This document shows, one piece after another, positions 2,550-57,797 of a stretch of 64,000 bases of DNA. The notes beneath the pieces were generated by a model that had not been told where the DNA came from, ran no database searches, and saw nothing but the letters and a program-made list of their open reading frames with translations. The DNA comes from Planctomycetota bacterium (lineage in GTDB: Bacteria > Planctomycetota > Phycisphaerae > Phycisphaerales > SM1A02), in the NCBI GenBank assembly GCA_016873255.1, contig VGXR01000006.1, positions 1 to 64,000 on the forward strand. Direction: 5' to 3'. Both the position numbers and the translations under genes were made by a program. Within the stretch, counting starts at the first letter, position 1. Every line of letters begins with the position of its first letter.

Positions 2550-3449
2550 ATGGAAGCTCATGCCGCCAACCCGTCGCTTCGCGCGGTCGCGCGCTCGATC
2601 GCCGAGCTGCCGCAGTTGGCCCGGTTCGGCGGCAGCGCCTCGCTGGACCATGCGTTGGCGGGCCGCCTGCTGGCGGCGTTCCGCGAGATCGCCTTTCCCG
2701 GGTTCCATGCCCTGCCCCACGGCGGCACCCATGAGACACCGGAGGCCTTCGTCGCCGAGCGGGTTCCCGCGCTGCGTGCGCTGCTCGCGGGGTGCATCGC
2801 CGCATCGGCCCGGAGCGAAGGACGCCCAGTCGACGAACGCGCTGCGCTCGACGCGGCCGACGCGCTGCTCGCGCGGATCCCGCAGGTGCGCGCGATGCTC
2901 TCGGAGGACGTCGACGCCGCCTACCGCGGCGACCCCGCGGCACGCAGCGTGGCGGAGGTCATCCTCTGCTACCCCGGCATCGCGGCCATGGTGGCGCACC
3001 GGTTCGCGCACGAACTCTGGAACGCGGGCGCCACGGTGCTGGCCCGGATGATGTCGGAGATCGCGCATTCGGCAACGGGCATCGACATCCACCCGGGCGC
3101 CTCGATCGGCCACGGCGTGTTCATCGACCACGGCACCGGCGTGGTGATCGGCGAGACGTGCGTCATCGGCGCCGGATGCCGGATCTACCAGGGCGTGACG
3201 CTCGGCGCCAAGAAGTTCGAGCGCGCGGCCGACGGATCGCTCCGCAAGGGTTCGAAGCGCCACCCGACGCTCGGTGAGCGCGTGACCATCTACGCAGGCG
3301 CCACCATCCTCGGCGGCGATACGGTGATCGGCGACGATTGCGTCGTGGCGGGCGGCGTGTTCGTCACGCAGAGCGTGCCGCCCGGCCACCTGGTGGCCAA
3401 TCCCAAGGCGCAGGTCCGTGTTCTCCCGCACGGGGGCGATCCGTCATGA
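2550..3449 (+). CDS. cysE: Serine O-acetyltransferase
   Basis: Transfers acetyl from acetyl-CoA to L-serine, giving O-acetylserine for cysteine synthesis in the cytosol. 299 aa. The N-terminal helical domain (about 1-150) includes [16 protein letters not shown]. It leads into a left-handed beta-helix of hexapeptide repeats (about 165-290) with [21 protein letters not shown] (read in two parts), GAKKF and [15 protein letters not shown]. His residues in DIHPGA and IDHGTG match the catalytic and substrate positions of the family. It overlaps the next gene by an ATGA, indicating translational coupling to the SGNH hydrolase. Confidence 0.93.
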
Positions 3450-4426
3450 GCGCACGGCTCGGGATGCGCGGCCTGTCGGGGCTGGCGCTCGCGATCGCGG
3501 CGGCGGTCACGCTTGCCGTGGTGCCGGTGGCGATGCCGTCGCCGGTGCGCGACGCGCTCCCGGGACTGGACGCGCCGACGCTCTACGCGCGCGTGCACGT
3601 GATCGGCGCGAGCGCAAGCGCGGGCTTCGGCGTGCGGCCGCCGGTGGAACGCGGCACGCCGGGACGGCTCTCGGGCCTCACGCTCGCGCAGGTGGCCGAG
3701 TGCGCCGGCAACGGCAGCTGCCGCGTCACCGGCGACGCGACGGCGCTCTTCTCCGCAAGCCCGCTGTCTACGGGCACCGAGCAGGTGGAGGGGCTCCTCG
3801 CCATGGACCCGCGCCCCACCGTGGTGTTCGCCGACGACTTCCTCTTCTGGTTCACGTACGGCGCCCTCGCCGTCGACGGCAACCGCACGCCGATCACCGA
3901 CGAGTCGCAGCGGCTGCAGATGCTGGAGTCCGGGCTTGCGCTCCTCGACCGCGTGGTGGAGGTGAAGCTGCCGCTGGTGGTCGGCGACATACCCGACATG
4001 TCGGTGGCAGTCGGCGGGATGCTCAGCCGCATGCAGATGCCGAAGCCGGACACGCTGGCGCGGGCCAACGAACGGATCCGCGCATGGGCCGCCGGGAAGC
4101 CCCGCGTGGCGGTGCTGCCCCTGGCACGGCTCGTCGAGGAGCTGCGGTCCGGCAAGCCCTTCGATGCCGGCCGACGCAGCTGGAGCGAGGCCACCGACGG
4201 CCCGCTCATCCAGCGCGACCAGCTGCATGCCACGTTCGCGGGCACCGTGGCGCTGCTCGCCCGCACCGAGCAATCGGCGAACGAGCGGTTCCTGGGAATC
4301 AGGCAGCCGAACGCGCCCGGAGCACCCGCGGTGTTCGAGCACGACCCCGCCACGGTCGGCGCACGCGTGCGCGAGTCGCTCCGTGCCGCAAGCGAAGCGC
4401 TCAGGCCCGCTCAGCCCGCGCCCTGA
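3446..4426 (+). CDS. SGNH/GDSL-like hydrolase domain protein, exported
   Basis: 326 aa, starting at the ATG that overlaps the cysE stop (ATGA, 3446-3449). An N-terminal hydrophobic segment (about 8-30, LSGLALAIAAAVTLAVVPVAM) looks like a signal peptide or anchor. VIGASASAGFGV fits SGNH block I with the nucleophile serine in GAS. Near the C-terminus DQLHATFAG fits block V (DxxH). An ester or acetyl substrate is likely but unidentified. The 3' end overlaps the stop of the opposing gene at 4411 by 16 bp. The SGNH assignment rests on two of the usual four blocks. Confidence 0.65.
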   Translation: MSARLGMRGLSGLALAIAAAVTLAVVPVAMPSPVRDALPGLDAPTLYARVHVIGASASAGFGVRPPVERGTPGRLSGLTLAQVAECAGNGSCRVTGDATALFSASPLSTGTEQVEGLLAMDPRPTVVFADDFLFWFTYGALAVDGNRTPITDESQRLQMLESGLALLDRVVEVKLPLVVGDIPDMSVAVGGMLSRMQMPKPDTLARANERIRAWAAGKPRVAVLPLARLVEELRSGKPFDAGRRSWSEATDGPLIQRDQLHATFAGTVALLARTEQSANERFLGIRQPNAPGAPAVFEHDPATVGARVRESLRAASEALRPAQPAP

Positions 4427-49653: not shown

Positions 49654-51243
49654 ATGAGCCCTGCGGCCCACGAATCCATGGTGTGGGCGGCTCAGCTGGC
49701 CCTCGCGGCGCTGGCCGAGCCAACGCCGGCAACCACCATGAGCCCCCTGCCGCCACCTGCTGACCATGTTGCACCAGCCGCCCCCGGCGAGGACGCGCCC
49801 CAGCCAGGTGCGCCCGCACCGTGCGAGCCGGTCCCCACCGCGGCGCAGCGGGCGTGGAAGGACGTTGAGTTCACTGGGTTCATCCATTTTGGGCCGAACA
49901 CCTTCACCGACCGGGAATGGGGCCACGGTGACGAGCCTGCAGCCGTGTTCAACCCAACGTCGCTGGATGCGCGGCAGTGGGTCCGCGTAATGAAGGACGC
50001 GGGGATGGGCGGCGTGGTGGTGACCGCCAAGCACCACGACGGGTTCTGCAACTGGCCGACAGCCAAGAGCGGGCACTCCGTGAAGGGGAGCCCGTGGAAG
50101 GACGGCGCTGGTGACGTGCTGCGCGATCTGTCGGATGCCTGCCGCGAGGCAGGGCTGAGGTTCGGCGTGTACCTGTCGCCATGGGACCGGAACAACCCTG
50201 CCTATGGCACGGGCGAGGCGTACAACCAGTACTTCCGCGACCAGCTGCGCGAGGTGCTCACGGGATACGGGCCGGTGTTCGAGGTGTGGTTCGATGGCGC
50301 GTGCGGCGAGGGGCCCAACGGCAAGCGGCAGGTCTACGACTTCGCGAGCTTCGAGCGGACGGTGCGCGAGCTGCAGCCGCAGGCGGTGATCTTCAGCGAC
50401 GTGGGGCCGGACATCCGCTGGGTGGGCAACGAGCAGGGCTGGGCCGGCGACACGTGCTGGTCGATGCTGAAGGCGAAGGGCCACGGACGCGGCGCGGACA
50501 ACCCGCCGCCCACGAAGAGCCTGAACGAAGGCGACGAGGACGGCGAGGCGTGGGTCCCGGCCGAGTGCGACGTGAGCATCCGCCCGGGCTGGTTCTATCA
50601 CGCGCACGAGGATGACAAGGTGAAGACGCCGGAGCAGCTCTTCGACCTCTGGGAGCGCAGCGTCGGGCACAATGCCAACCTCCACCTGAATTTCCCGGTG
50701 GATCGGCGCGGGCTGATCCACGAGAACGACGCGACGGCCGTGCGCGGGCTGCGCAGCTTGATCGATTCGACGTACGGGCCCGGGACCGATCTCGCGCGCG
50801 GCCGGGTGACGGCGGTCGACAACATCCGCGGCTTCGTGCCTCGAGGGGCCAGGGAGCCGCTGAGAGAGAGTGCCTTCGACGGATCGAAGGCGGTTGACGG
50901 CGATCCGCGCTCATACTGGGCGACAAACGATGCCGTGCGCGCGGCGACGATCGAGGTGGAGCTCGACCCGGGAGCGGCATGGGACCGCGTGGTGCTGGCC
51001 GAGCCAACCGAGCTTGGCCAGCGCATCCGCAGGTTCCGCGTGAGCGTGCCGGCGGGCCCGGGCACCAGCAACAACAACCGCGATTGGCGGGTGCTGGCCG
51101 AGGGCACGACGGTCGGACACAAGCGAATCGTGCGCGTGCCCGAGACGCACGCGTCGCGCGTGCGGGTGGAGATCCTCGACGCCCGCGCGTGCCCGCTGCT
51201 GTCGGTGGTGGGCGTGCACCACACGAAGTCGGGTCCGGGGTAA
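49654..51243 (+). CDS. GH29-family alpha-L-fucosidase
   Basis: 529 aa. Catalytic barrel (about 65-370): FTGFIHFGPNTFTDREWG, VVVTAKHHDGFCNWPT, RFGVYLSPWD, and the nucleophile Asp214 in FEVWFDGACG. The C-terminal ~130 residues form a discoidin/F5-8C-like beta domain (SAFDGSKAVDGDPRSYWA). N-terminus is Ala/Pro-rich with only a weak signal-like stretch (VWAAQLALAALA). Removes terminal L-fucose. The repeat at 51233 overlaps the stop. Confidence 0.88.
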   Translation: MSPAAHESMVWAAQLALAALAEPTPATTMSPLPPPADHVAPAAPGEDAPQPGAPAPCEPVPTAAQRAWKDVEFTGFIHFGPNTFTDREWGHGDEPAAVFNPTSLDARQWVRVMKDAGMGGVVVTAKHHDGFCNWPTAKSGHSVKGSPWKDGAGDVLRDLSDACREAGLRFGVYLSPWDRNNPAYGTGEAYNQYFRDQLREVLTGYGPVFEVWFDGACGEGPNGKRQVYDFASFERTVRELQPQAVIFSDVGPDIRWVGNEQGWAGDTCWSMLKAKGHGRGADNPPPTKSLNEGDEDGEAWVPAECDVSIRPGWFYHAHEDDKVKTPEQLFDLWERSVGHNANLHLNFPVDRRGLIHENDATAVRGLRSLIDSTYGPGTDLARGRVTAVDNIRGFVPRGAREPLRESAFDGSKAVDGDPRSYWATNDAVRAATIEVELDPGAAWDRVVLAEPTELGQRIRRFRVSVPAGPGTSNNNRDWRVLAEGTTVGHKRIVRVPETHASRVRVEILDARACPLLSVVGVHHTKSGPG

Positions 51244-51261
51244 ACCCGCACTTCTTTATCG
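51233..51261 (+). repeat. Copy of the GTCCGGGGTAA repeat (AMSDH leader)
   Basis: 29 bp overlapping the fucosidase stop. It differs from 55319-55347 (left arm of the kmo element) at only three or four positions, and its continuation (GCGGACC... CGGCAG) resembles the sequence inside the right arm of that element. Lies 22 bp before the dehydrogenase ATG. Confidence 0.75.
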
Positions 51262-51283
51262 CGGACCTTCGGCAGTGCCCACC

Positions 51284-52732
51284 ATGATGAATCGCGTGCC
51301 CAACTGGATCGACGGACGACCGCAGCCCGCGGCGCGCGGGTGCGAGATGCCCGTGGTCGACCCAGCCACCGGGGAGCAAGTGGCGATGCTCGCGGCTTCG
51401 GGTGCCGAGGACGTGGCGGAGGCGCAAACCGCGGCGGGGCGCGCGTTCCCGGCGTGGAGCGCGCGGCGCGCCCCGGAGCGAGCGGAACTGCTGGAACGAC
51501 TTGCGGGCCTGGTGGAGCGTGACCTCGACCGACTGGCGCGCCTGGAGAGCGTCGACAGCGGCAAGCCGCTGGCGCTCGCGCGGAGCGTGGACATCCCGCG
51601 CGCGGCGGCAAACCTGCGGTTCTTCGCCGAGGCCGTGCGTGCGTGGAAGCCCGACGAGGAGCTGCGCACGGCCAACTCCCAGTCGCTTGTGCTGCGGCGG
51701 CCCGCGGGCGTGGCTGGATGCATCAGCCCGTGGAACCTGCCGCTCTACCTCTTCACATGGAAGATCGCGCCGGCGCTCGCGGCCGGGTGCACGGTCGTCG
51801 CCAAGCCGAGCGAGGAGACGCCGATGACCGCGGCCGCGCTCGGCGAGCTGAGTGCGGAGGCGGGTTTCCCGGCAGGCGTGCTGAACGTCGTGCAGGGGCG
51901 CGGCGCCGACGCGGGCGCGGCGATCGTGGCGGACCCGGGCATCCCGGTCATCACGTTCACGGGCGGAACGGCGACGGGCGCGCGCATCATGCAGGTGGCA
52001 GGACCGATGTTCAAGCGCGTGGCGCTCGAGCTCGGCGGCAAGAACCCGACGGTCGTGTTCGGCGACGCGGACTTCGACGCGGCGGTTGCGGGTGCCGTGC
52101 GGGCGGGCTTCCAGAACCAGGGGCAGATATGCCTGTGCGGAAGCCGCGTGCTCGTGGAGCGCGGGACGTATGCGCGGTTCCGCGATGCGTTCGTGGAGCG
52201 CGTGCGTGCGCTGCGCGTGGGCGACCCGATGGAGGCCGGCACGGACCAGGGCTCGCTGGTGTCGCAGGCGCATCGCGCGAAGGTGGCGGCGGCGGTCGAG
52301 CGCGCGCGCGCGGAGGGCGGGCGCGTGCTGTGCGGAGGCGGTCCACCGGAGCCGGCGTCGCTTCCGGCGCGCGTGCGCGGCGGCGCGTTCTGGATGCCAA
52401 CCGTGGTCGAGGGCCTGCCGATGGGCTGCGCCACGAACCAGGAGGAGATCTTCGGGCCCGTGGTCACCGTTGCGCCCTTCGACGGCGAGGACGAGGCCGT
52501 GGCGCTTGCCAACCACAGCCGCTACGGGCTGGCCGCGAACGTCTGGACGCGCGACCACGCGCGCGGGCTGAGAATGGCCGAGCGGCTTGACTTCGGCATC
52601 GTGTGGATCAACGCTTGGCTGCTGCGCGACCTGCGCGTGCCGTTCGGCGGCACGAAGCAGAGCGGCGTCGGCCGCGAAGGCGGCGATGAGGCGCTGCGGT
52701 TCTTCACGGAACCGAAGGCCGTGACGTGGTGA
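51284..52732 (+). CDS. 2-Aminomuconate-6-semialdehyde dehydrogenase
   Basis: 482 aa NAD-dependent aldehyde dehydrogenase. Catalytic Cys in GQICLCGSR, Glu in LELGGKNP, coenzyme Gly in FTGGTATG, EIFGPVV near the C-terminus. Family alone would not give the substrate; its place beside kynurenine-pathway genes makes 2-aminomuconate semialdehyde (ACMSD product) the expected one, giving 2-aminomuconate. ATG ATG at 51284/51287; GTG 51275 also in frame. Confidence 0.82.
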   Translation: MMNRVPNWIDGRPQPAARGCEMPVVDPATGEQVAMLAASGAEDVAEAQTAAGRAFPAWSARRAPERAELLERLAGLVERDLDRLARLESVDSGKPLALARSVDIPRAAANLRFFAEAVRAWKPDEELRTANSQSLVLRRPAGVAGCISPWNLPLYLFTWKIAPALAAGCTVVAKPSEETPMTAAALGELSAEAGFPAGVLNVVQGRGADAGAAIVADPGIPVITFTGGTATGARIMQVAGPMFKRVALELGGKNPTVVFGDADFDAAVAGAVRAGFQNQGQICLCGSRVLVERGTYARFRDAFVERVRALRVGDPMEAGTDQGSLVSQAHRAKVAAAVERARAEGGRVLCGGGPPEPASLPARVRGGAFWMPTVVEGLPMGCATNQEEIFGPVVTVAPFDGEDEAVALANHSRYGLAANVWTRDHARGLRMAERLDFGIVWINAWLLRDLRVPFGGTKQSGVGREGGDEALRFFTEPKAVTW

Positions 52733-52758
52733 ATCCGTTCCTGGTTAGTTTGCCACCA
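52733..52758 (+). repeat. Inverted repeat left of the RidA gene
   Basis: 26 bp starting immediately after the dehydrogenase stop. The inverse copy is at 53293-53318 (23 of 26 match). Its first 16 bases equal the last codons and stop of kynB. Confidence 0.85.
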
Positions 52759-52822
52759 GTTGTTTTCTCCGGAGAAACGGGTCTGCGCCGGCTGGCCGCC
52801 CGTGAGGCACGAGGATCGATCG

Positions 52823-53248
52823 ATGACTGACGCACTGAACTCCGCGCGCGCGCCCGAACCCGTCGGCCCATACCCCCACGCCAAGCGCGTCGGCAACCTG
52901 CTCTTCATGTCCGGCGTGGGCCCGCGGGTGCGCGGGTCGAAGGAGATCCCCGGCGTGACGCTGGCAGCCGATGGCTCGGTGCAGAGCCACGACATCGAGG
53001 CGCAATGCAGGAGCTGCTTCGCGAATTGCCGCGCGGTGGTCGAGGACGCCGGCGCGCGGTGGGAGGACGTGGTGGACGTGACGGTGTTCCTGACGGACAT
53101 CCGGCGTGACTTCGCGGCGTACAACCGCGTCTACGCGGAGTGGTTCGCGGGGCCGGGCAACCCGAATCCCACGCGCACGACGCTCGGGATCACGGCGCTT
53201 CCCACGCCGATCGCGGTCGAGGTGAAGGCGATCGCCGTGATGCGGTGA
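52823..53248 (+). CDS. RidA-family protein, probable 2-aminomuconate deaminase
   Basis: 141 aa. GNLLFMSGVGP, the family's conserved VVDVTVFLTDI and the Arg in NPTRTTLGI. Rid proteins hydrolyse enamine/imine intermediates; in Pseudomonas and Bordetella nitrobenzoate/tryptophan routes a member of this family deaminates 2-aminomuconate. Position next to the dehydrogenase supports this. AGGA 8 nt before ATG 52823. Flanked by inverted repeats. Confidence 0.82.
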   Translation: MTDALNSARAPEPVGPYPHAKRVGNLLFMSGVGPRVRGSKEIPGVTLAADGSVQSHDIEAQCRSCFANCRAVVEDAGARWEDVVDVTVFLTDIRRDFAAYNRVYAEWFAGPGNPNPTRTTLGITALPTPIAVEVKAIAVMR

Positions 53249-53292
53249 AGTTCGTCCCGTTCCTCCCGGGCCATTTCCCGTGGCGCGGAAAT

Positions 53293-53318
53293 TGGTGCCG
53301 AGCTAACCAGGAACGGAT
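53293..53318 (-). repeat. Inverted repeat right of the RidA gene, within the kynB end
   Basis: 26 bp, inverse of 52733-52758. It contains the last five kynB codons and its TAG stop, and runs into the 54-bp gap between ridA and kynB. Confidence 0.85.
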
Positions 53319-53938
53319 TTCAGGATGGCGCGGACGGGGCTCGCGTCGGCGCCCTCGATGCGCAGCGGTAGCGCGATCAGCTCATAGCGGCCCTCGGGAA
53401 CGGCGTCGAGCACCACGCCCTCGATGATCGCGATGCCGGTGCGGAAGAACGCCGCGTGCGCGGGAAGGTCCTTGCTGTCGGAGCGGTCGACGCTCGGCGT
53501 GTCGATCGCGACCAGGCGCACGCCGCGCGTGTCGAGCCACTCGACGAGCGCGGGGTCGATCGATGCGAAGTCCGCGTTCCAGCGCTCGGGGTCGGGGAAG
53601 CTGCCCGTGGCAAGCACGAGCCGCTCGGTGCCGAACGGCACGCGGCCGGCGACATCCTGCACCGTGACGGCGCGGCCCCGCACACCGTCCACGCGCACGA
53701 CGATGCACGGGCCCACGTAGAGGTCGAGCGGCTGGCGGTCGATCGTCCCACCGCCCTTGCCGTAGTGCACCGGTGCATCGGCATGCGAGCCGAGGTGCAC
53801 GGTCGAGGTCACCGAAGACAAGGAGATGTGGTCCCCACGGTCGACGTGCATCGGCTCGCGGCGCTCGAACGGCGTGTCACCCGGGAACACCGCGAGGCGC
53901 GCGGAGATCACCGGCGAGATGTCGTGGATGCGCGTCAT
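53303..53938 (-). CDS. kynB: Kynurenine formamidase
   Basis: 211 aa cyclase-family metal hydrolase that deformylates N-formylkynurenine. Metal motif HLGSHADAPVH (H-x-G-S/T-H-x-D-x3-H) near 49-59, ISPVISARLAVFPGDTPF at the N-terminus. ATG 53938 overlaps the kmo stop (ATGA). Last gene of the minus-strand kynurenine run. Confidence 0.9.
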   Translation of the reverse strand: MTRIHDISPVISARLAVFPGDTPFERREPMHVDRGDHISLSSVTSTVHLGSHADAPVHYGKGGGTIDRQPLDLYVGPCIVVRVDGVRGRAVTVQDVAGRVPFGTERLVLATGSFPDPERWNADFASIDPALVEWLDTRGVRLVAIDTPSVDRSDSKDLPAHAAFFRTGIAIIEGVVLDAVPEGRYELIALPLRIEGADASPVRAILKSVPG

Positions 53939-55308
53939 GGCCACTTGCTCCCCGCCGACGCCGCGCGAACCGCGAACGCCGCCAGCGCCACAAGAGCCAC
54001 GAACGCTACGGTCGCAAGCGCCGCACCGGCCGCCAGCACCGTGCGATCTTGCCTGCGCGCGCGATCGCGCGCCGCCGCATACGGCACCGTGGTGAAGCTC
54101 ACGAGGTCGTAGAGCGGCACGAACGCGCGTGGCATGACGCGATTCAGCGCGTGGTCGAGCTTCTTCTTGAGCCGGAAGCTGAGGTGCGCGGTGCGGTCGC
54201 GCATCTCGACGAAGTTGTTGAGCGCCATGTCCGCGATCGCGTCGGCATTTGGCTTGCGCTCGCGCTGGTATTCCTCGAGCGCGCAGGACACGTCGGACGG
54301 GTTGCGCTCGAGCGCGTCCACGAGGCACTCGCAGTCCTCGAAGCTCGCGTTCGCGCCCTGGCCGTAGAACGGCACGATGGCATGCGCGGCGTCGCCGAGC
54401 AGCGCGAATCGGCCGCCCATGGCCCACGGCCAGCAGCGGATGGTGACCATCGAGCCGACCGGGTTGCGGTCGAAGTCCTCGGCGAGCGTCGGCATGATCG
54501 GCACCGCGTCGGGATAGACCCGCCGGAAGTACTCGAGCGCCGCGCGGCCGTCGCGGACGGATGCGAACGAGGCGTCGCCGCCGCCCTCGAACGGCCAGAA
54601 GAGCGTGCACGTGAAGCTGCCGTCGGGATTCGGGAGCGCGATCATCATGCTGCCGCCGCGCGGCCAGATGTGGAGCGCGTTCGGGTCCATCGCGAACGGC
54701 GCGTGCGGGCCGGCGGCTACGGGCGGGATCACCAGCTCCTTGTAGCCGTGCGCGAGCGACGACTGCGAGTACTCGAACCGCTCTCGCCGCTCCATGTGCC
54801 CGCGCACCGCGCTGAATGCGCCGTCGGCGCCGACCACGAGGTCCGCCTGGGCCTCGACGCGCGTCCCGTCCTGCCACTCGAAGACCGCGGCACCACGCTG
54901 CTCGTCGAGGCCGGTGCAGCGATGGTCGAAGAAGAGCTCGACGTTCGGGTGCGCCGCCGCCGCGCGCAGCAGCATCATGTTGAGCGCGCTGCGGCTGAAG
55001 CTGACGATCGCGCGGCTCGGGTCGGCCGAGTACGGCACGTACATCGTCTGCCCGGCGGCGGAATGGAGGATGCGCCCGGGCATGCGGATGCCGTGGGTAC
55101 GCACCTCCTCGGCGAGTCCGGCGCGCTCGAGCGCATGCAGGCCGCGGGCGCTGATGGCGAGGTTGATCGATCGCCCACCCACGCACCCGCGCGCGCGCGG
55201 GTCGCCGCGGCGCTCGAACACGCGAACGTGCCACCCGCGCCGGCCCAGGAAGTGCGCCAGGAGCGAGCCGCCGAGTCCGGCGCCGATGATGACCGCGGTG
55301 CGTGGCAT
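53935..55308 (-). CDS. kmo: Kynurenine 3-monooxygenase
   Basis: 457 aa FAD monooxygenase making 3-hydroxykynurenine with NADPH and O2. GAGLGGSLLAHFLGRRGW (FAD), GRSINLAIS, VGADGAFS, GDAAHAIVPFYGQG, the last being the KMO-type flavin motif. A single hydrophobic helix sits at the C-terminus (about 422-450, with flanking Arg), as in eukaryotic KMO. 3 bp of spacer to the inverted repeat upstream, no good ribosome binding site. Confidence 0.93.
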   Translation of the reverse strand: MPRTAVIIGAGLGGSLLAHFLGRRGWHVRVFERRGDPRARGCVGGRSINLAISARGLHALERAGLAEEVRTHGIRMPGRILHSAAGQTMYVPYSADPSRAIVSFSRSALNMMLLRAAAAHPNVELFFDHRCTGLDEQRGAAVFEWQDGTRVEAQADLVVGADGAFSAVRGHMERRERFEYSQSSLAHGYKELVIPPVAAGPHAPFAMDPNALHIWPRGGSMMIALPNPDGSFTCTLFWPFEGGGDASFASVRDGRAALEYFRRVYPDAVPIMPTLAEDFDRNPVGSMVTIRCWPWAMGGRFALLGDAAHAIVPFYGQGANASFEDCECLVDALERNPSDVSCALEEYQRERKPNADAIADMALNNFVEMRDRTAHLSFRLKKKLDHALNRVMPRAFVPLYDLVSFTTVPYAAARDRARRQDRTVLAAGAALATVAFVALVALAAFAVRAASAGSKWP

Positions 55309-55311
55309 GCG

Positions 55312-55438
55312 AAATTGTGTCCGGGGTAACCCCGCACTCCTTTGTCGAGACTCAGGCGACGAGACCCATGTCGCGCCGCCGCCGCTGCCGGATGCAAGGT
55401 CCGCGCAAAACAGTGCGGGGTTACCCCGGACACAATTT
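55312..55438. repeat. 127-bp palindromic element between kynU and kmo
   Basis: Perfect 27-bp inverted repeats at 55312-55338 and 55412-55438 enclose 73 bp. The right arm overlaps the kynU stop (55437) and the left arm ends 3 bp from the kmo start, so the element is almost the entire intergenic space. A partial direct copy is at 51233-51261. Size and structure suggest a small palindromic (REP/MITE-like) element or a regulatory hairpin. No transposase seen. Confidence 0.9.
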
Positions 55439-56720
55439 AGCGTCCGCAGAGCGCGGCTGCCGCGGCGCGCGCGTCCTGCCAGCCGCTGTAGAGCGGCACG
55501 GGTGCGAGGCGCACGATGTTCGGCTCGCGGAAGTCGCACACGATGCCGCGGCGGCCGAGCTCCGCGTGCCGCGCGCGCGCATCCCGCTCGAACGCGATGC
55601 TCAGCTGCGCGCCGTGCGCTCCGGGCGCATCCGGCGTCACCACGCGGCAGCCCTCCGGGCCCCACGCCGCGATCAGCGACCGCAGGTACCCCGTCACGGC
55701 GCGGCTCTTCGCGTGCAGCGCATCCATCCCGACGCGGTCGAAGATCCGCAGGCTGGCCAGCAGCGGGGCAAGCGCCATGATCGGCGGGTTCGAGCACTGC
55801 CAGCCGTCCGCACCCACGCGCGCCGTGAACTCGGGCCCCATGGCAAACCGCGTGGCAGGGTCGTTGCCCCACCACCCCGCGAAGCGCGGCAGGTCCGTCC
55901 GCCGCCCGTGCCGCTCGTGCACGAACGCGCCAGCCACCGCACCCGGGCCGGCGTTCAGGTACTTGTACGAGCACCAGCACGCGAAGTCCACGTCCCACTC
56001 GTGCAGCCTCGCCGGGAGGTTCCCTGCCCAGTGCGCCAGGTCCCAGCCCGCGACCGCGCCCACGGCATGCGCAGCCGCGGTGATGCGCGCGATGTCGAAC
56101 GCCTGGCCCGTCGCGTAGTTCACGCCGCCCACCATCACCAGCGCGAGCGACTCGCCAGCCTCCCGGATCGCGTCAAGGAGGTCATCCTCGCGGATGAGCG
56201 CCTCGCCCGCGCGCGGCCCGACCTCGATCACCTCGCGCGCCGGGTCGAGCCCACGCGCGCGCACGTGCGTCTTCACCGCGTAGGTATCGCTCGGAAACGC
56301 GCCGCGCTCCATCAGCACCTTGGTGCGCCTGCCCTCGGGCCGCCAGAAGCTCACCATCAGGAGGTGCAGGTTCACCGTGAGCGAGTTCATCATCACCACC
56401 TCGCCCGGCCGCGCGCCCACGAGCCGCGCGCCCAGCTCGCGGAACTGCTCGTGGTAGTCGACCCACGGCCGCCGCGCATGCAGGTGACCCTCCACGGCAA
56501 GCCGCGACCAATCGTCGAACTCCTCCTGCACCAGCCGGCGCGCCTCGCGCGGAAGAAGGCCCAGCGAGTTCCCGCAGAGGTACGTGAGCGGTGCGCCGTC
56601 CGCGCCGCGCGGGAACTCGAACTCCTCGCGCACGGCACGGAGCGGATCCGCCGCGTCCATGCGGGCCGCGAACTCGGCGGAAGCATCAAGGGGATTCGGC
56701 ACGGTCGCGGTCATGGTCAT
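55437..56720 (-). CDS. kynU: Kynureninase
   Basis: 427 aa PLP enzyme cleaving (3-hydroxy)kynurenine to (3-hydroxy)anthranilate and alanine. PLP Lys253 in WCSYKYLNAGPG, LCGNSLGLLPR, GWDLAHWAGN, VTPDAPGAHGAQLS. ATG 56714 has the better ribosome binding site (GGAG, 7 nt) and would shorten it by two codons. 12 bp after the ACMSD gene. Confidence 0.95.
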   Translation of the reverse strand: MTMTATVPNPLDASAEFAARMDAADPLRAVREEFEFPRGADGAPLTYLCGNSLGLLPREARRLVQEEFDDWSRLAVEGHLHARRPWVDYHEQFRELGARLVGARPGEVVMMNSLTVNLHLLMVSFWRPEGRRTKVLMERGAFPSDTYAVKTHVRARGLDPAREVIEVGPRAGEALIREDDLLDAIREAGESLALVMVGGVNYATGQAFDIARITAAAHAVGAVAGWDLAHWAGNLPARLHEWDVDFACWCSYKYLNAGPGAVAGAFVHERHGRRTDLPRFAGWWGNDPATRFAMGPEFTARVGADGWQCSNPPIMALAPLLASLRIFDRVGMDALHAKSRAVTGYLRSLIAAWGPEGCRVVTPDAPGAHGAQLSIAFERDARARHAELGRRGIVCDFREPNIVRLAPVPLYSGWQDARAAAAALCGR

Positions 56721-56732
56721 ACTCCCTCGGCC

Positions 56733-57797
56733 TCACGCGGTGGCATCGACATGCGGCGGCACGCGCCCATCTCCCGCGCCACCCGCGGCGCGCACCGCTC
56801 GCGACGCACGCTCGCCGAGGAAGGCCGCCGCGGCGCCGTGCAGGATGCTCTCGCGCATCTCGGCGTCCAGCCACCCGGCCTTGCGCACCACCTCGCCCGC
56901 CGACAGCTCGCCGAGCGGAAACGGGTAGTCCGTGCCCAGCGCCACCTTGCCATTGCCAGCCACCGAAAGCAGGAGCCGCAGCGCCTCGGGGTCGTGCACC
57001 AGCGAGTCGAACCACACGCGCCGGATCGACTCGCGCGGCGATTCGCGCGTCATCGTCTGGCAGAGGTCGGGCCGCTCGCGGAAGCCGTGCTCCCAGCGCC
57101 CGAGCGTCATCGGCGCGGCACCGCCCCCGTGCGCGAACCCGATGCGAAGCGACGGCAGCCGCTCGAGGACGCCGCCGAAGCACACGCTGCCCACCGCGAG
57201 CGCCGTCTCTGCCGGCATGCCCACGAGCCACGGGAACCAGTGCCGCGGCATGCGGTCGGCGGCCATCATGTCCCACGGATGCACGAACACGCACGCGCCC
57301 AGCGCCGCCGCGGCCTCGAGCACCTCGACCACCGCAGGATCGTCGAGGTTGCGGCCGTTCACGTGCGAGCCGATCTGCACGCCGGGCATGCCGAGCTCGC
57401 GCACGCACCGCTCGAGCTCGCGCACCGCGAGCCGCGGGTCCTGCATCGGCACGGTGCCGAGGCCCGTGAAGCGGTCCGGAAATGCCTGCACGACCCCCGC
57501 CACGTGGTCGTTGAGGAACGCCGCCAGGTCCGCCGCATCCTGTGCCTTGGCCCAGTAGCCGAACATCACGGGCACCGTGCTCAGTGCCTGCACGCGCACG
57601 CCGGAAGCGTCGCAGTCGGCCACGCGCACCGCCGGGTCCCAGCAGTTCGACTGGATCTCCCGGAACATCCTCCCGTCCTTCCACAGGCGCGCACGGCACG
57701 CGCCGCAGTGCTCGATCGACACCCAGCCCGGGTACCCGTACTTCGCGCACAGGTCTGGCCAGCGCTCCGGCAGGATGTGCGTGTGGAGGTCGATCAT
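56733..57797 (-). CDS. nbaD: 2-Amino-3-carboxymuconate-6-semialdehyde decarboxylase
   Basis: 354 aa amidohydrolase-fold zinc enzyme. [16 protein letters not shown] (HxH metal ligands at 5 and 7), [24 protein letters not shown] (His and the family pattern, in two parts), [11 protein letters not shown] (Asp). Decarboxylation of ACMS removes the precursor of quinolinate. The longer in-frame reading upstream of 57797 is antisense-like and rejected. Confidence 0.93.

Follow-up and report, generated by a model that had tools for sequence, protein, structure and literature searches.

RAYT transposases with their REP sequences were described by Nunvar 2010 (PMC2817692), and REPINs by Bertels and Rainey 2011 (PMC3116915). 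As stated in the portions of this literature that concern us here, REPs usually number more than 100 copies per genome (PMC2817692), sit mostly downstream of genes, and have cleavage sites that are chosen by guide tetranucleotides (the latter two points among PMC2817692, PMC3733652, PMC6006769, PMC3116915 and PMC8266576). The ends of GTAG REPs often provide TAG stops (Di Nocera 2013, PMC3733652). The same report described TIRYT transposases and TIRtrons, which mostly correspond to subclass 2.1 of PMC6006769, and published for the TIRs a GGGGWSAS motif that is not found in every TIR. Y1/REP transposases, and REP ends that give stop codons, are already published. Our search of the literature found nothing closer on stop-codon targeting, and no paper on REPs in Phycisphaerae.

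Here we describe a repeat in the draft genome of a Planctomycetota bacterium (2.78 Mb, 152 contigs, 97.5% complete), where it forms an inverted doublet between kynU and kmo within the window, the whole stretch of 64,000 nucleotides that was analysed. The doublet is most probably (roughly 0.88) a REP/TIR-type non-autonomous mobile element, the enzyme acting on it in trans being a REP-associated single-strand Y1 (HUH) transposase. As in the RAYT/REP systems and REPINs outlined in the relevant parts of PMC2817692 and PMC3116915, a Y1 transposase gene lies between two inverted short palindromic repeats in sister species, the repeats are dispersed between genes as inverted doublets and singles, and their letters are lineage-specific. 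Unlike the REPs of those accounts, the unit has no GT(A/G)G head but starts TRAAAT and carries GTCC-GGGGTAACCCC-GCAC in an alignment of 18 copies; there are 18 copies in place of the usual hundred or more (>100); and the outer end lies on stop codons in most of them.

The TIRYT/TIRtron description, as set out in the relevant part of PMC3733652, shares with our case Y1 transposases between long terminal inverted repeats unrelated to GTAG REPs, and moderately abundant repeat families with many dimers. A counterpart of its GGGGWSAS motif, GGGGACAG, occurs in other repeats of the genus (L105, L113), whereas the doublet's unit has CCCCGGACAC instead of the strict motif. The Y1 proteins carry NHFH, NWQG (with its WQ) and YIERNP, which by eye compare with NH[YF]H, W[EQ] and YIELNP or Y[IV]HLNP for subclass 2.1 in Table 1 of PMC6006769. 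In contrast to the GTAG REPs that supply TAG stops in PMC3733652, most copies here have as their stop the core TAA or, where the unit ends, a TAA or TGA; sister species also have different repeat families on one orthologous stop. The unit appears to resemble both systems, and the TIRYT description probably fits it best; the repeat family, and the refilling of stops by the repeats of different lineages, look new.

Results

The kynU gene (kynureninase; 55437-56720, minus strand; TIGR01814, 410.7 bits) is followed on the same strand by kmo (53935-55308), a kynurenine 3-monooxygenase-like FAD monooxygenase that was recognised as an ORF with its domains and named from context and from the preliminary description. 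Neighbours are 3-HAO, Trp dioxygenase, ALDH and RidA-like genes. Direct reading of the 131-nt gap between kynU and kmo agreed with the preliminary description of a perfect 27-bp inverted repeat that fills it: AAATTGTGTCCGGGGTAACCCCGCACT lies at 55312-55338 and recurs as its exact reverse complement at 55412-55438, with 73 nt between the arms. The arms lengthened to 36 nt at 92% when mismatches were allowed (55309-55344 and 55406-55441), and among inverted repeats of less than 1.5 kb it ranked first for the whole window. Three bases separate the nearer arm from the kmo ATG (55308-55306, minus strand), as had been described. The other arm had been said to hold the kynU stop TAA (55439-55437, minus strand); it does overlap that stop, but covers two of its three bases. 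The 20-nt core matched three times in the window and not once in 100 shuffles, and the repeat is therefore not due to chance.

The inverted repeat consists of two copies, a doublet, of a unit of about 42 bp. One half occupies 55310-55351 on the plus strand, with its outer end toward the kmo start, and scored 51.2 bits with R1, a sequence-only model built from the copies of this genome. The other half occupies 55399-55440 on the minus strand (43.8 bits with R1); the stop of the kynU frame, at -8, is made by its outer end. Between them the alignment leaves a spacer at 55352-55398. The doublet region was predicted to fold as RNA at -90 kcal/mol, where shuffled sequences averaged -56 (z -8.3), in line with the stable mRNA stem proposed earlier. 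The hairpin could conceivably act in cis on the translation of kmo. No sigma-70-like promoter was found within 51000-57000. A terminator-like match was found at 55428-55416, and three such matches in 6 kb against 2.1 expected correspond to the chance level. A known structured RNA or riboswitch was considered and dropped, with no Rfam family matching in the window at gathering thresholds. The kmo start had been noted to lack a ribosome binding site of its own; by eye, none is obvious in the relatives with an empty gap either, so its absence is not caused by the element.

A search of the genome with the 19-nt core, allowing up to 3 mismatches, gave 18 sites, nine of them identical, while the reversed control pattern gave none. 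Model R1 recovered the same 18 and none extra. The units are spread over 10 contigs, ten of them in five inverted pairs and the other eight single, with three of the 18 belonging to the kyn cluster and 15 lying elsewhere; a unit dispersed in this way is not a kyn-specific switch. In the alignment of the 18 copies the consensus is about T(G/A)AAATTGTGTCCGGGGTAACCCCGCACTTCTTTATCGCGGAC, with a core of GGGG-TAA-CCCC that makes a GC hairpin with a T-rich stretch behind it, and GCAC is present in all copies. A single unit of the family lies at 51224-51265 on the plus strand (core 51233-51251, one mismatch). This related copy had been placed at the head of the opposing dehydrogenase gene. The copy is real and ends about 10 bp ahead of the ALDH ORF, which has its GTG at 51275. 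Read in its own direction, however, the unit forms the 3' end of an alpha-L-fucosidase-like ORF that comes before it, with the TAA of the core (51241-51243) as the stop of that ORF.

Two other repeat families were seen in the same cluster. A unit of the second family (TTCGTCCCGTTCCTCCCGGRCCA) begins on the plus strand at the stop TGA of the RidA-like gene (53246-53248) and runs to about 53280, its far end being approximate; this family flanks Y1 transposases in the sister genomes G081, G101 and G102 and, as a variant, in G103. The family (CGTCCCGTTCCTCCCGG) of this unit at the RidA-like stop (53246-53280) has further copies in the genome at L001, L009 and L010, those in L009 and L010 apparently on stop codons. 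The third family (AATCCGTTCCTGGTTAG) is a 30-nt inverted repeat (87%) of unrelated letters that brackets the RidA-like gene (52760-53248). Its plus-strand unit (52732-52761) overlaps the ALDH stop TGA (52730-52732), its inverted partner on the minus strand (53290-53319) carries the stop TAG (53305-53303) of a facing minus-strand ORF, and no copies elsewhere were found among the loci examined. Together with the units of the doublet's family, those of the second and third families place such repeats at five gene ends of the kyn cluster.

Matches to the doublet's unit at E <= 0.01 were found in all five genus members and in none of the 96 other genomes in a draw of 101 genomes from the family; at E <= 0.1, 11 of the 14 genus genomes had matches. 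In the genome collection the exact pattern occurred in 14 stretches. Eleven came from MAGs with the label Planctomycetota, Planctomycetaceae or Phycisphaera, and one each from Streptomyces, Lachnospiraceae and Solobacterium; these last three were taken as chance. A wide distribution was discarded as the exact pattern is nearly confined to planctomycete MAGs, and a viral origin was discarded as it is absent from IMG/VR, with the proviso that records of the present genome may be missing from both the collection and IMG/VR.

The position of the units relative to gene ends was scored from the core start. At 15 of the 18 units of the present genome the in-frame stop of the upstream reading frame lay within -12 to +10, 11 of them at -8 or -9, and two of the other three units have a gene ATG at -10. 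The count in G025 was 14 of 19, leaving out one of 20 units that is cut by a contig end (C132:1-19) and scoring as a miss one that has only 8 upstream codons (L131, 13406-). For G099, G106, G108 and G081 it was at most 16 of 18, an upper bound because forward frames only were examined; this figure omits the G058 unit, two of three G081 units, two of six G106 units and the weak matches of G101, G105, G107 and G109, and one of the 16 (G106, L143) aligns to the start side of a gene. The GC3 rule behind the stop calls can take an antisense frame as a gene, and the calls at G025 20808+ and at C4:45892- of the present genome are ambiguous. Random intergenic positions in the window had a stop so placed in 0.7% of cases, a rough null that is probably too low because the gene set under-calls genes (38 ORFs, 66% coverage). 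The stops of this gene set are 29 TGA, 5 TAG and 4 TAA, and two of the four TAA lie inside units.

Part of this placement is built into the unit, whose letters across copies carry stops in three frames (TGA at -9, TAA at -8 and TAA at +8), so that a frame entering the unit tends to terminate there. By eye, however, the native stop is at the same position in orthologs without the unit for kynU (G103, G109), C55 (G025, G103) and C24 (G107), whereas the C4 gene of the present genome and that of G107 both end 5 codons short of the other species.

Several orthologous stops carry different repeats in different species. At the C55 stop the present genome has the doublet's unit. G103 has one from the CTCCCGTTCCTCCCGGACC family, the family found around the transposase of that genome; G109 shows a decayed-looking unit, and G025 and five other genomes have none. 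C4 holds the doublet's family in the present genome and, at the same codon in G107 (L193, G107:C75), another doublet made of AAATGGGGTTCGGGATAACCCGTACCTATTTC and its inverse. At C13 a short doublet is common to the present genome and G106, and the doublet of G099 and G108 has a longer, unrelated spacer. Two or three species have C8 and C1 occupied, and the letters differ between them. On these few sites we advance, tentatively and at less than even odds, the reading that a lineage of single-strand transposases may target the stop codon itself, orthologous stops being filled, emptied and refilled by the repeat family of each lineage. Repeats that lie on, or have turned into, stop codons would then be harmless.

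Both kynU and kmo were obtained from seven genomes. The doublet is present between them in the present genome and in G025 (gap of 121 nt), and the gap is without the element in G103 (22 nt) and G109 (19 nt). In G105, G058 and G081 it measures 118 nt, with no unit match. This conserved 118-nt gap (L086, L087, L089) starts TAAAGTAG and, from these first letters, may be either a repeat that has decayed or a leader with no relation to it. Divergence among the relatives at kynU-kmo is about 18-20%, which makes exact insertion junctions unreadable; the insertion seems partly to replace gap letters and is not a clean addition.

Trees, junctions and repeat letters together favour two separate insertions in the present genome and G025. 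G025, G109 and G103 grouped apart from the present genome with support of 85 (kynU+kmo), 94 (kynU), 99 (gene flanking the transposase) and 98 (C4 gene), that is 85-99 in four of five trees, which are not all independent, the tree of kmo alone being unresolved at 54. The left junction of the doublet lies at the kynU stop here and some 9 nt earlier in G025, where kynU has lost its last codons, reads into the unit and ends at the core TAA. The spacers of the two doublets are unlike in the alignment. GTAC is found in the arms of the G025 doublet, in the repeats around the G025 transposase and in 13 of 19 G025 units, the others having GCAC (5/19) or GAAC (1/19). One ancestral insertion, followed by separate losses in G103 and G109 and by homogenisation of the letters within each genome, would agree with the shared gap and orientation, the similar lengths and the GCAC that persists in those five G025 units, and drift of orthologous repeat letters around fixed transposase genes is described in the relevant part of Nunvar 2010 (PMC2817692). 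We nevertheless regard it as rather unlikely, as it would cost one gain and two losses against two gains on these trees and has to accommodate left junctions that differ.

A profile search for Y1_Tnp (PF01797) gave 15 matches in 9 of the 14 genus genomes. The Y1 transposase gene is flanked by an inverted pair of the doublet's unit in G099 (C23), G108 (C12) and G025 (C127). Other Y1 genes of the genus had a bracketing inverted repeat of 27-43 nt at all six loci examined, and AAAT-like or ATTT-like letters were seen near the repeat ends at five of these six. Around the Y1 gene of G103 (L115/L171) the repeat is CTCCCGTTCCTCCCGGACC or a variant. The proteins exceeded the Pfam Y1_Tnp cut-off (31.1 and 28.5 against 23 bits), and with NCBIfam REP_Tyr_transpos they scored 54.5 and 45.7 bits, under its 80-bit cut-off. 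In the present genome (152-contig draft, 97.5% complete), a Y1 transposase was found neither with the PF01797 profile nor when the G025 protein was run in tblastn. A RAYT transposase had been suggested as something to look for; a Y1 transposase bracketed by the unit occurs in three sister genomes and was not found in the genome at hand, so present mobility of the copies there cannot be demonstrated.

A gene flanking the transposase was matched in all 14 genomes of the genus, although the match in G106 was weak and covered 82 bases only, and the locus could be read in 13. Seven of these have the transposase (G025, G081, G099, G101, G102, G103 and G108). In G058, G105, G104, G107 and G109 there is no transposase, and 15 to 85 nt lie between the matched flanks. 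The empty site of G058 reads CTG-TAAATCAGCC, and the filled site of G099, where the element stands directly behind a TAA stop, reads CTC-TAAATTGTGTCC...GGACACAATTT(CTGCC)TCAGCC. The present genome has 780 bp of other sequence at this locus. An orthologous transposase there was considered and rejected: the place (L165, G000:C27, about 3199-3712 of the reverse complement) holds an ORF that by eye encodes a small secreted cupredoxin/dockerin-like protein, and the weak matches that tblastn gave (best E 1e-6, with composition correction off) were taken as GC-rich noise. Target-site duplications had been proposed as a sign of mobility, and none was seen. They are generally not expected of the Y1 enzyme class.

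Discussion

The preliminary description had offered two readings of the kynU-kmo repeat, a small mobile palindrome and a regulator or RNA switch of the pathway. The former is supported by 18 dispersed copies, a repeat that flanks Y1 transposases in sister species and a kynU-kmo site that is empty in two relatives. An RNA switch or attenuator of the kyn operon, in which the 27-bp stem would hide the kmo start under the control of a ligand or protein, would make sense of the very stable fold predicted over the gap (z -8.3), of a stem end 3 nt from the kmo ATG and of the doublet in the same gap of G025, and one might add the terminator-like match within the repeat. Yet 15 of the 18 copies are off the kyn cluster, G103 and G109 have kynU and kmo adjacent without the element, the spacer differs between the two occupied species, and Rfam contributes no family to the window; we consider such a switch highly improbable. 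A kyn-specific regulator was rejected as the main reading because the copies are dispersed and relatives lack the element.

A family of transcription terminators or 3'-end stabilisers kept at gene ends by selection would derive the stop-codon placement from function and not from insertion. The outer unit end on stop codons, the GC hairpin and T-rich stretch of the core, and the occupation of the C8 and C13 sites in several species are all consistent with it. However, the C8 unit is trailed by a separate inverted repeat that by eye looks like a terminator, the kynU-kmo copy lies between genes of the same strand, three copies do not face a stop, and many orthologous genes have no unit. A function at 3' ends also leaves the bracketing of transposase genes unexplained, and we judge this account improbable.

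The preferred reading remains that of a non-autonomous element of REP/TIR type. Its repeat is dispersed, transposases are bracketed by it in relatives, orthologous sites are found both occupied and empty, and unit ends lie on in-frame stops. The Y1 transposase would move the units as single-stranded hairpins and join them at or beside stop codons. Such placement might reflect a short enzyme target resembling TRAA(T), or the survival only of insertions that keep or supply a stop. The present genome would have lost the enzyme, its copies being left behind as orphans. In the kyn operon the element would have taken over most of a gap of roughly 20 nt and become the terminus of kynU, and any effect of the doublet hairpin on kmo, while possible, would be incidental. 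The kyn hairpin should accordingly not be taken as a pathway regulator without experiment.

The site choice of REP-like repeats is poorly understood. Target choice can be tested directly in a genus that has repeats on stop codons, orthologous sites both filled and empty, and enzymes that lie between repeats with letters of their own. The placement on stop codons also points to a way in which repeats could insert harmlessly where genes are dense.
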